Below, piece by piece: positions 2,006 through 5,742 of a stretch of DNA of 43,160 nt. A program made the position numbers and the translations under genes. The stretch lies in IMG/VR virus record IMGVR_UViG_3300003322_000095, positions 1 to 43,160 of that record, one strand, 5' to 3'. The DNA comes from a virus. Position 1 is the stretch's first letter, and each line of letters begins with the position of its first letter. The notes below the pieces were generated by a model, which saw nothing but the letters and a program-made list of their open reading frames with translations, searched no databases and had not been told where the DNA came from.

Positions 2006-2197
2006 ATGCTGAACATTCCGCAGCGCATCAAGGACTTTTTCCTTGAATTGCGCATCGCCCTGGCGCGCTGGGACATACTGCTGTCCGCCGACGCCGAGGA
2101 GACCCGTCGCCACTACCTGCGCATGGCGCGACTGATCCGCCGGCGCAGCCCGGCGCAGATCGCCCGGATGGCGAAAAAGCGGGGGACATATGAATGA
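2006..2197 (+). CDS. Small basic hypothetical protein
   Basis: 63 residues, rich in Arg and predicted helical (RHYLRMARLIRRRSPAQIAR). The start has a ribosome-binding site AGAGGT about 9 bases upstream. Its last codons overlap both starts of the methyltransferase pair (2190 and 2194), so translation is probably coupled. No recognised family; it may bind nucleic acid because of its charge, which is inference. Confidence 0.6.
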   Translation: MLNIPQRIKDFFLELRIALARWDILLSADAEETRRHYLRMARLIRRRSPAQIARMAKKRGTYE

Positions 2198-2897
2198 GCT
2201 GGCACTTTTCGCTGGTGCTGGTGGAGGAATACTCGCTGGCAAGCTTCTGGGGTGGCGAACCGTGTGCGCAGTGGAAATCAACTCCTACTGCGCAAGACGA
2301 CTTATGCAGCGCCAAAATGAGGGGCACCTTTCACCGTTCCCCATTTGGGATGATGTATGTACCTTCGACGGACACCCATGGCAAGGGATTGTTGATGTGG
2401 TATCGGGGGGATTTCCCTGCACCGACATCAGCCCTGCCGGAAAGAAAGCTGGAATCGACGGAGACGAAAGCCGGCTCTGGGTGGAAATGGCGAGAATCAT
2501 TCGTGAAGTACGACCTAGATACGCGTTCGTGGAGAACTCGTCAATGCTCACTCATCGGGGACTCGAACGTGTTCTCGGAGACCTGGCCGCGATGGGGTTC
2601 CATGCACGATGGGGAGTGCTTGGATCTGGCGACATTGGCGCCGAGCACTGCCGTGATCGCGCCTGGATCCTGGCCGACGCCATGCCACGGGAGTTCCCGA
2701 TGGGGTGGGACATTTCAAGAGGTCGGTGGAAGCAAGAACAAGTTGCGCGGAACGCCCATAGGCAAGTTGTATGTGAACCCGGATTTCTGGGAAAGCCTCA
2801 TGGGATGGCCGATCGGATGGACCGGAATCGCGCCATTGGCAACGGGCAAGATCCTCGAGTGGCAGCAACAGCATTCTCCATACTCTCCAGAAACTGA
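2190..2897 (+). CDS. dcm-like: C5-cytosine DNA methyltransferase
   Basis: 235 residues, compact for the family, with all main motifs. SAM-binding motif I is FAGAGGGILAGKLLG near residues 7-21. Catalytic motif IV is GGFPCTDIS (the Cys is the nucleophile), motif VI is FVENSSML, motif VIII is CRDRAW, and motif X is AIGNGQ near the end. It flips and methylates cytosine at C5 in a short target, probably to avoid host restriction. The short target-recognition region fits phage solo methylases. A second, fully open frame (2194-2910) covers the whole gene, and base composition here is less GC-biased at third positions than in neighbours, as expected when two frames are constrained. The start codon is close to the GGGGG site (4 bases). 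Confidence 0.88.
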   Translation: MNELALFAGAGGGILAGKLLGWRTVCAVEINSYCARRLMQRQNEGHLSPFPIWDDVCTFDGHPWQGIVDVVSGGFPCTDISPAGKKAGIDGDESRLWVEMARIIREVRPRYAFVENSSMLTHRGLERVLGDLAAMGFHARWGVLGSGDIGAEHCRDRAWILADAMPREFPMGWDISRGRWKQEQVARNAHRQVVCEPGFLGKPHGMADRMDRNRAIGNGQDPRVAATAFSILSRN

Positions 2898-2910
2898 GGA
2901 TGCCGCATGA
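2194..2910 (+). CDS. Overprinted protein in the +1 frame of the cytosine methyltransferase
   Basis: 238 residues read in a different frame over the entire methyltransferase gene and 13 bases beyond it. It begins MSWHFSLVLVEEYS, has SWRTRQCSL and TWPRWGSM in the middle and ends with LMGWPIGWT and a QQQH stretch. From memory, phage proteins with this start and a late WPIGWT motif are annotated repeatedly as hypothetical or methylase-like; I cannot check this here. Support in the sequence: an ATG 8 bases after GGGGG (better spaced than the methylase start), 716 bases with no stop, and a stop that overlaps the next small ORF as ATGA. The function is unknown. The alternative is a chance open frame in GC-rich DNA, made less likely by its length and the linked ATGA. 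Confidence 0.6.
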   Translation: MSWHFSLVLVEEYSLASFWGGEPCAQWKSTPTAQDDLCSAKMRGTFHRSPFGMMYVPSTDTHGKGLLMWYRGDFPAPTSALPERKLESTETKAGSGWKWRESFVKYDLDTRSWRTRQCSLIGDSNVFSETWPRWGSMHDGECLDLATLAPSTAVIAPGSWPTPCHGSSRWGGTFQEVGGSKNKLRGTPIGKLYVNPDFWESLMGWPIGWTGIAPLATGKILEWQQQHSPYSPETEDAA

Positions 2911-2969
2911 ACCGTGAACAACGCCGCGCCTTGAAGAAGGCCCAGTATGCCTATGTGGGGAGCGTGTGA
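2907..2969 (+). CDS. 20-residue basic peptide
   Basis: A tiny ORF (MNREQRRALKKAQYAYVGSV) whose ATG overlaps the stop of the overprinted frame (ATGA at 2907-2910). It ends one base before the ATG of the replication gene, and the GGGGAG inside its end serves that gene. Short Arg/Lys-rich peptides starting MNREQRR are, as I recall, common in phage genomes. Could be a real peptide or just a coupling device. Confidence 0.45.
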   Translation: MNREQRRALKKAQYAYVGSV

Positions 2970-2970
2970 T

Positions 2971-3885
2971 ATGGCACGTATCCGCACTATCAAGCCAGAG
3001 TTCTGGACTTCAGAGCAGGTCATGGAGGTCTCTCCGATTGCTCGCCTGCTATTCATTGGCATGTGGAATTTTTGCGATGACAAGGGCGTGATTCCTGCCA
3101 GCTTCAAGACACTGAAAGCCCAGATATTCCCTTCTGACGACATCCTATCCAAGGACATTGAGCCGCTTATTGGCGAACTACTGGCGCAAGAACTTCTTGG
3201 TCAGTTTGAAGCTGATGGCCGCACTTGGTGGTTTGTTACGGGTTGGCATCACCAACTGATCAATCGTCCATCCAAGTCCCGCTACCCTTCGCCTCCGTGC
3301 CAGATCGCACCGCTACCCGAAGCCGCCGGACAGGACGATTCAGTGAATGATGTCGCAGAAACACATCAAGTCTCACCGCAAGCCAACAGCAAAAAAGACA
3401 TCAAATCACTGAAAGATCACGGAGAACTCACGGAGCACTCACTGAGCACTCACGGAGAACTCATTGACGGAAGGGAAGGGAAGGGAAAGGAAGGTACAAC
3501 TACCTCACTGCGTTCGGTAGTTGAGAGAGAGGCGCGCACGCCCGATCCTGCCGCGCTTACCTCGTGCCCTGCCTGCTTCACCGCCACCGTCGCCCATCGC
3601 GGCCTGGCGTCGAATCTGCAACTCGACCTAGCGAACGAGATTGGCATGTTCCTGGCGAACGCCCGCAGCAAGGGCCGCATGTCCGCCGACTGGAACGCCG
3701 AGTTCGAGATGTGGCTGCGCCGATCCCGCAACTTCGGCAACGGCAAGGACCAGCAGTCCAGTGCCGCCGGCAAGAACGCCGGAAACTCCCGCGATGACGG
3801 ACGACGTGCCGCAGCCAACACGCTGGGCGTCGGTTCTCAGTACCTGACCCCGGAGGAATTCGACCATGAGCAACTCACCCGCTAG
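2971..3885 (+). CDS. Phage replication initiator (lambda O-like organisation)
   Basis: 304 residues. The N-terminal part (MARIRTIKPEFWTSEQVM, then RLLFIGMWNFCDDKG) is the winged-helix-type start seen in phage replication proteins that bind the origin. A low-complexity linker follows at residues about 130-190. The C-terminal part (LANEIGMFLANARSKGR, EFEMWLRRSR) resembles DnaT/primosome-type helical domains. The linker DNA carries tandem 11-bp repeats (see 3407-3523), as the lambda O gene carries lambda's origin. The start at ATG 2971 has GGGGAG 8 bases upstream. The next gene, P-like, overlaps its end. The general replication call is good; direct homology to lambda O is not claimed. Confidence 0.7.
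   Translation: MARIRTIKPEFWTSEQVMEVSPIARLLFIGMWNFCDDKGVIPASFKTLKAQIFPSDDILSKDIEPLIGELLAQELLGQFEADGRTWWFVTGWHHQLINRPSKSRYPSPPCQIAPLPEAAGQDDSVNDVAETHQVSPQANSKKDIKSLKDHGELTEHSLSTHGELIDGREGKGKEGTTTSLRSVVEREARTPDPAALTSCPACFTATVAHRGLASNLQLDLANEIGMFLANARSKGRMSADWNAEFEMWLRRSRNFGNGKDQQSSAAGKNAGNSRDDGRRAAANTLGVGSQYLTPEEFDHEQLTR
3407..3523 (+). repeat. Iteron array and hairpin: candidate replication origin
   Basis: Four tandem 11-bp units with consensus CACGGAGMACT lie at 3418-3428, 3429-3439, 3440-3450 and 3451-3461. Degenerate units flank them at 3407-3417 and 3462-3472. Upstream is an A-rich stretch (3384-3417), downstream a purine tract (3469-3494) and an 8-bp perfect inverted repeat, CAACTACC (3497-3504) with GGTAGTTG (3516-3523). 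The array is inside the initiator gene, in the codons of the linker. Repeat length is close to one helical turn, so bound proteins would sit on one face. Origin function is inferred from this architecture and from lambda. Confidence 0.65.
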
Positions 3886-4769: not shown

Positions 4770-4957
4770 TCACCATCGAACTGAGCGCCAAGGCCCTGGC
4801 CGTCTGCGAAACGCATTACACGACGCCCGGCAAGGGCAACGGCTGCGGCAAATGCCCGATCCAGCGCGAGTGCATCACGCAGCGACCGGTGCGCTCCATG
4901 GTCGAGCTGGAAGTGTGGCGGGCACGGGTCAACGAAGCGGCGGAGAAGGCGACATAA
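4766..4957 (+). CDS. Small cysteine-rich protein
   Basis: 63 residues with four cysteines, one early (AVCETHY) and three clustered as CGKCPIQREC, a pattern able to bind zinc or an iron-sulfur cluster. It starts in an ATGA overlap and stops two bases before the PAPS-reductase-like gene, so the two may act together, but this is inference. No named family. Confidence 0.6.
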   Translation: MITIELSAKALAVCETHYTTPGKGNGCGKCPIQRECITQRPVRSMVELEVWRARVNEAAEKAT

Positions 4958-4959
4958 AT

Positions 4960-5742
4960 ATGATTACTAAAAACAATAGGATTGTTGCGCAATTTTCATG
5001 CGGAGCGGCATCTGCTGTGGCGACAAAACTCGCTCTTTCTCAGTACGGTGACCGAGTCGTAATTCTCAATGCCTTCGTTGAGGAGGAGCACGAAGACAAC
5101 AGACGATTTGCCACTGACTGCGAAAAATGGTTCGGGCGCGAAATCATCATGTTGCGCGATGCAAAATATGATGCTAGCGCTATCAAGGTATTCGAGACGG
5201 TTGGTTATATCAAAGGGCCGAAAGGCGCGGCCTGCACTTCACGGATCAAGCGCGGACTGCTTCGGGAGTTCGAGCAGCCTGGCGATGTGCTGGTGCTTGG
5301 ATATACCGCCGAGGAGCAATGGCGGCTCGACGACTGGATCGAAGATTGGCCTGATCGACCAATCATTGCACCGCTCATTGATCGCGGACTGACAAAAGAG
5401 GATTGCAAGGCAATGGTGATCCGAGCAGGCATTGAGTTGCCAGCTATGTATCGACTTGGCTATGACAACGCCAACTGCATTGGCTGCGTGAAAGGTGGGC
5501 TCGGGTACTTCCGTGCAATTCGTGAAGATTTCCCTGCTCAGTTCGAGCGCTTGGCACAGGCCGAAGACAAGGTGGCTCAGCTTCATGGGGATAATGCATA
5601 CATTCTTCGCCATAGGTCAGGGCCGTTGAAAGGGCAACGTTTCCCGCTTCGGCAGTTGCCAGTTGGCCCGGCCCATCGCGGAGAGCCGCTGCCGTCATGT
5701 GGACTTTTCTGTGAAATGGCAGAGCAGGAGTATGCCGGATGA
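4960..5742 (+). CDS. PAPS-reductase/ATP pyrophosphatase-like (PP-loop) protein
   Basis: 260 residues. The N-terminal AQFSCGAASAVATKLAL is a variant PP-loop (usual SGGxDS), the signature of the N-type ATP pyrophosphatases that include PAPS reductase, DndC and thiolation enzymes. A CIGCVKGGLGYF motif lies at about residues 171-182 and another Cys pair (CGLFC) near the end; the first is typical of the phage branch of this family. Such enzymes adenylate or reduce substrates in sulfur transfer; the phage substrate is unknown (nucleotide, tRNA or DNA modification are options). Base composition is visibly AT-richer than the neighbours, suggesting separate acquisition. Confidence 0.75.
   Translation: MITKNNRIVAQFSCGAASAVATKLALSQYGDRVVILNAFVEEEHEDNRRFATDCEKWFGREIIMLRDAKYDASAIKVFETVGYIKGPKGAACTSRIKRGLLREFEQPGDVLVLGYTAEEQWRLDDWIEDWPDRPIIAPLIDRGLTKEDCKAMVIRAGIELPAMYRLGYDNANCIGCVKGGLGYFRAIREDFPAQFERLAQAEDKVAQLHGDNAYILRHRSGPLKGQRFPLRQLPVGPAHRGEPLPSCGLFCEMAEQEYAG

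Follow-up and report, generated by a model that had tools for sequence, protein, structure and literature searches.

C5-cytosine methyltransferases composed of two polypeptides have been described. In M.EcoHK31I, the alpha chain carries motifs I-VIII and X, motif IX is located alone on a small beta chain, and the predicted recognition domain was placed in alpha (PMC3404938). The beta gene of EcoHK31I is reportedly nested within alpha in another reading frame (Lee et al. 1995). M.AquI also consists of two polypeptides, and its recognition region is divided between both (PMC3404938). C5 methylases of two polypeptides are already known, and therefore the principle itself is known.

The current work concerns a locus in the IMG/VR virus record IMGVR_UViG_3300003322_000095, in which the window, that is the whole stretch of DNA analyzed, comprises 43,160 nucleotides. 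The locus very likely encodes one two-subunit C5 methyltransferase whose halves are almost completely overprinted; its translation, heterodimer formation and activity are inferred.

Structure of the locus and its start region

Two genes on the plus strand overlap almost completely, over about 700 nt. The alpha gene (frame 1, 2190-2897) encodes 235 amino acids with the catalytic domain of a C5-cytosine methyltransferase, containing motifs I-VIII and X. The beta gene (frame 2, 2194-2910), located in the +1 frame over alpha, encodes 238 amino acids and is interpreted as the recognition and motif IX subunit. The start codons at 2190 and 2194 lie 4 nt apart within ATGAATGA (2190-2197, plus strand), in which the stop of a 63-aa upstream ORF (2006-2197) is also found. 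A first-pass annotation, made from the sequence alone, had noted two gene-long open frames starting four bases apart at these positions, and this observation held.

A search of IMG/VR with frame 1 only returned 80 loci, 74 of them distinct. The context AATGAG[CT]TGG, with the frame-2 start MSW, was preserved in 75 of the 80. A Shine-Dalgarno match was detected in 112 of 163 loci; its median distance was 4 nt from the start of alpha, which amounts to 8 nt from the start of beta. The stop of beta shares an ATGA (2907-2910) with a downstream ATG. The reported coupling to the next ORF was confirmed as an overlap, but that ORF has just 20 aa. GC content at third positions was 0.56 in frame 1, versus 0.82-0.89 in three adjoining genes, in agreement with the weakened bias claimed earlier, though another adjoining gene (2968-3885) is also low (0.64).

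Elsewhere in the window, a second DNA methyltransferase, of the N4/N6 type, is located at 783-1658, shortly upstream of the C5 pair (PF01555, E 1.5e-13), and a PAPS-reductase-like protein is encoded at 4957-5739 (PF01507, E 0.005, under the curated cut-off).

Partition of methyltransferase motifs between alpha and beta

Alpha matched PF00145 over residues 4-162 (E 1.2e-25) and phrog_363 in PHROGs (E 7e-53); the NCBIfam match fell under the curated cut-off. The alpha family profile matched the catalytic domain of M.HhaI (E 1e-20), and the AlphaFold2 model of alpha matched both M.HaeIII and M.HhaI, with pLDDT below 50 at residues 178-216. On the plus strand, motif I (FAGAGG, 2208-2225) is largely invariant in alignment A2. 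In motif IV, which contains the catalytic Pro-Cys (PCTDIS, 2415-2432), P76 and C77 are invariant, as are E115 and N116 in motif VI (FVENS, 2526-2540) and R155 and R157 in motif VIII (CRDRAW, 2649-2666), the invariance of these key residues being judged over 63 sequences. Motif X (AIGNGQ, 2832-2849, plus strand) is located further downstream, back in frame 1. The PF00145 catalytic-domain criterion (motif I, the PC of motif IV, the EN of motif VI, and motif VIII) is satisfied by frame 1. A recognition domain and motif IX ahead of motif X were not found in the alpha chain, and the full-chain criterion, which demands both before motif X, is satisfied solely by the two chains together. The earlier claim that frame 1 has all C5 motifs therefore failed: motifs I, IV, VI, VIII and X are present, and motif IX and the recognition domain are absent.

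The N-terminal part of beta (2194-2670, plus strand; MSWHFS... KYDLDTRSWRT ... SETWPRWGSM) lies over the catalytic domain. It is followed on the same strand by the putative recognition-domain region (2671-2772), which starts with WPTPCHGSS and over which frame 1 is a near-neutral linker, and by motif IX (VNPDFWESLMGWPIGWT, 2773-2823), recognized by hhalign to single-chain C5 methylases. In that comparison, GKLYVNPDFWESLMGWPIGWTG of frame 2 aligned with GNPRLAPAFSEWMMGWPAGWVT of the single-chain actinophage C5 methylases (96.1%, 45% identity), in a match spanning 22 columns only. The IX-X stretch of the single-chain actinophage enzymes is co-linear with M.HhaI 268-307 in a weak local alignment that has no significance of its own. 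By a strict pattern, motif IX was found in beta in 145 of 163 relatives and in alpha in none of the 163; other relatives contain variants such as WFMGWPLGWT. Motif X was detected in alpha in 155 of 163 relatives and in beta in 0 of 163.

Beta matched phrog_1008, labelled 'DNA methyltransferase', as did all 74 rows of the beta alignment. Searches of Pfam, NCBIfam and PDB with beta gave no match, a 38-aa consensus of motif IX gave none in a PDB search, and AlphaFold2 run on beta with 74 sequences produced no usable model (mean pLDDT 48.5). The recognition-domain fold of beta is unconfirmed by any model; its placement in beta rests on the pattern of selection and is an inference from sequence alone.

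Frame 2 compared with chance

The null model permuted synonymous codons within each gene, by which the protein and the codon usage were kept. Of the 74 distinct loci retrieved with frame 1 only, 70 had an open frame 2, versus 0.19 expected under this shuffling. At the present locus alone, the chance of an open frame 2, given the frame-1 protein and its codon usage, was 0.0015. The third frame contained 6-27 stops in each of the IMG/VR loci. In 197 of 198 loci, none of the 50 synonymous shuffles scored as high against the profile as the real frame 2; this set includes prophage loci of bacterial genomes left out of profile building. After shuffling, about 130-210 of roughly 270-390 bits persisted in full-length loci, and conservation of frame 1 is enough to produce about half of the frame-2 score. 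Raw frame-2 similarity, much of which is imposed by frame 1, is therefore not proof by itself, and tblastn identity of frame 2 was rejected as stand-alone evidence after the shuffles.

Seven ordinary single-chain C5 methylases (L288-L294), from bacterial plasmids (several of them beside restriction genes) and one Straboviridae phage, were used as controls. They contained 102 frame-2 stops, versus 112 expected, and their frame-2 profile scores fell within the shuffles. Since ordinary C5 methylases show neither a stop deficit nor a score excess, the shuffle null is sound. The single-chain enzymes of actinophages were dropped as a negative control, being themselves not negative.

The first-pass annotation had proposed to ask whether each hit to the second-frame protein lies over a methylase frame. 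The outcome was positive: both frames were present in all loci examined, the overlap was in +1 in 202 of 207, and frame 2 as a stand-alone gene was not found among the 207. These loci are related rather than independent, and those on bacterial genome contigs were picked by frame 2. The annotation had named as a refutation the presence of frame-2 stops in homologues with an intact methylase. Such stops are very rare: L040 and L097 have one internal TAA each. In locus L050 (3001-3435), frame 1 has a stop at codon 145 and frame 2 is intact, which may reflect a sequencing error or decay.

Selection in both frames

Relatives were compared in 178 pairs with a nucleotide identity of 75% or more; each difference was classified according to its consequence in frame 1 and in frame 2, and substitution rates were obtained by simple counting with Jukes-Cantor correction and bootstrap over codons. 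Over the whole overlap, dNN/dSN of frame 1 was 0.28 (0.24-0.33) and dNN/dNS of frame 2 was 0.44 (0.40-0.49), with a range of 0.34-0.44 also given for beta. Purifying selection acts on both frames, which meets the criterion for an overprinted pair. The proposed search for suppressed synonymous change in both frames thus gave a positive result, and the view of the locus as a long, ancient dual-coded gene for an enzyme and its partner is supported.

The strength of selection changes along the overlap. In the catalytic part, the ratios were 0.16 for frame 1 and 0.53 (0.45-0.63) for frame 2. Between motifs VIII and X (alpha codons 164-215), frame 1 was near neutral (0.89; 0.78-1.04) and frame 2 had a ratio of 0.30 (0.24-0.37). 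The motif IX stretch gave 0.20 in frame 2, and the motif X stretch gave 0.13 in frame 1. The dominant constraint therefore shifts from frame 1 to frame 2 and back to frame 1 at the boundaries of the catalytic, recognition-IX and motif X parts.

Split, fused and overlapped relatives

In many actinophages and environmental contigs, alpha stops after motif VIII, and a beta gene in +1 contains PTP-type recognition repeats, motif IX and motif X. This split beta corresponds to the recognition region, motif IX and motif X of single-chain enzymes (E 1.5e-53). The N-terminal part of beta in the window matched the overlap region of actinophage beta with an hhalign probability of 99.4%, although the alpha frame beneath it imposes part of this similarity. 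The forms found range from fused and split to partly or almost fully overlapped, and in every case of overlapping open frames beta is in +1; in split genes, the open beta frame overlaps alpha mostly by about 180-340 nt. Among cultured organisms, the closest relatives of the present locus are in Pseudomonas (L128 and L129, for example).

In the apparently single-chain actinophage enzymes (L120, L121, L207-L267), the last part of the catalytic domain is overlapped by a +1 ORF that resembles beta and carries ..FSETWPxSGMTRxGxAYELP..LPTP... Here 19 stops were counted, versus 52.6 expected, and the score lies above the 99th shuffle percentile in 27 of 30. In this group, gp55 of Babsiella is annotated within gp54. 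It is possible that the +1 ORF is a relic of a split ancestor or a working gene. The direction of evolution is undecided because these enzymes show such an ORF, as if they had been fused from a split pair.

Some annotations record one half of a pair. In Streptomyces phage phiBT1 (L123, NC_004664.2; 732-1232, 850-1779), the annotation of gene 9.1 reads 'DNA methylase may be inactive', and the absent half, with the recognition region and motifs IX and X, is an unannotated +1 ORF overlapping the gene end. In Stenotrophomonas phage SOVA965 (L112, PP079418.1; 1489-1989), 'DNA-cytosine methyltransferase' is the label given to the beta frame, and the catalytic frame is unannotated. The tails are swapped in the Leptospira plasmid pLiSL34 (L119; 1506-2183), where frame 1 has a beta-type C-terminus without motif X; a small indel may have broken this alpha/beta pair. 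Two C5 methylases chosen as controls, L287 on a Paracoccus denitrificans plasmid (800-2047) and L295 on the plasmid pAQ5 of Picosynechococcus PCC 7002 (725-1936), also have a long +1 ORF with motif-IX-like sequence (MMGFPPGW / YMGFPWHLF), and their methylase frame ends in a sequence resembling motif X. They are likely to be further nested pairs outside phages.

Proposed function and alternative explanations

The dual selection, the partition of motifs, and the homology of beta motif IX to single-chain and split C5 methylases are shown by computation. Translation of both frames, formation of a heterodimer and methylation of phage DNA are inferred, without expression or biochemical data. In the proposed mechanism, set in a temperate phage or prophage, alpha would bind AdoMet and provide the catalytic cysteine, beta would provide motif IX and DNA recognition, and the N-terminal segment of beta over the catalytic domain may dock on alpha. 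Each chain alone would be without an essential part, and jointly they would restore the order I-VIII, recognition-IX, X, with functional information alternating between the frames along the DNA. Near-coincident starts on one mRNA would tie the amounts of alpha and beta together. The enzyme would methylate phage DNA, presumably against host restriction.

Beta might be a real protein but act as a regulator, an inhibitor or an independent factor, for example in anti-restriction, rather than as half of the enzyme. In favor of this, no homologue beyond the family is known for the first two thirds of beta, and the fold of beta is unknown. The reading is nevertheless unlikely: alpha is without motif IX in 163 of 163 loci, the beta C-terminus matches motif IX, the beta of actinophages clearly corresponds to the C-terminal portion of the single-chain enzymes, and frame 1 is near neutral exactly at the position expected for the recognition domain. 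The inhibitor option raised in the first-pass annotation is thus corrected, the partner being most likely the recognition and motif IX half of the same enzyme. Production of a single polypeptide by programmed frameshifting, from frame 1 (I-VIII) to frame 2 (recognition, IX) and back to frame 1 (X), agrees with the exactly matching order of the functional parts on the DNA. It would, however, require two shifts. In addition, the start codon of frame 2 and its context are conserved, the ribosome site is well spaced, the N-terminal part is without stops and under purifying selection throughout, and split relatives have separate beta genes. Frameshifting is therefore very improbable.

The remaining alternative, that frame 2 is open merely through composition or frame-1 conservation, draws support from the good part of frame-2 similarity that frame 1 forces, by which raw BLAST identities are inflated. 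Against it stand the 70 open frames in 74 loci where 0.19 were expected, the scores above all shuffles in 197 of 198, the lack of signal in ordinary C5 methylases, and the stronger constraint on frame 2 than on frame 1 over the recognition part. The synonymous shuffles refute this explanation at the family level, and it is practically excluded.

Implications for phage methyltransferases

The proposed two-subunit arrangement in two frames is found again in phages and prophages by the hundreds, and annotation usually catches one half. Gene callers give one frame only, by which alpha appears as a methylase without a recognition domain, and beta is either called hypothetical or mistaken for the methylase. 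Pairing alpha with beta completes hundreds of phage methyltransferases, the specificity of which can be tested by co-expression. A same-strand overlap of about 700 nt is rare, and it allows selection to be traced between frames across one protein fold.

A bolder reading is favored by a narrow margin when all of its parts are taken jointly. It holds that these loci belong to a phage methyltransferase class that is large and has not been described, with near-full overlap, starts 4 nt apart and alternating parts, that the split or overlapped state is old and shared by phages of actinobacteria, proteobacteria and other hosts, and that the +1 ORF of the apparently single-chain actinophage enzymes is a relic or a working gene. 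If this were true, an exchange of recognition specificity would rewrite both frames at once.

Comparison with known two-polypeptide systems

The general principle is not new, M.EcoHK31I being the precedent. Like M.EcoHK31I and M.EaeI, in which motif IX lies on the small chain and motif X on the large chain, the enzyme consists of two polypeptides. Beta and alpha overlap on the same strand in different frames, as is reported for M.EcoHK31I (the overlap is in +1 in 202 of 207 loci here). Unlike in M.EcoHK31I, the recognition domain is assigned to beta by selection (0.30 in frame 2, 0.89 in frame 1), and beta begins 4 nt past the alpha start and spans nearly all of alpha. M.EcoHK31I is part of a restriction-modification system of bacteria (YGGCCR), whereas the present pair is found in a virus record. 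The likeness is one of shared motif layout, drawn by analogy, and does not settle between common descent and convergence.

In M.AquI, motifs IX and X are both on beta; the present locus, in contrast, has motif X in alpha and an overprinted beta. M.AquI is approached more closely by the actinophage relatives. Their split pairs (RemusLoopin gp34/35, Camerico gp38/39, Firecracker gp6/5, Andrew gp43/44, and Peaches gp77/76) resemble the present locus in the +1 beta, in motif IX and in the similar overlapping N-terminus of beta, whose recognition repeats in these phages are PTP..D..G. They differ from it in the partial overlap (annotated as about 20 to 240 nt) and in motif X, which is in beta. PHROG 363 (alpha) and PHROG 1008 (beta) are both labelled 'DNA methyltransferase', and the labels shown are silent on one two-frame locus. 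A description of such an overlap in phages was not found in the open-access literature searched, which is weak evidence of absence. The present pair differs from the described systems in that its two genes coincide over nearly their whole length, in that beta holds the recognition region, and in being widespread among phages.
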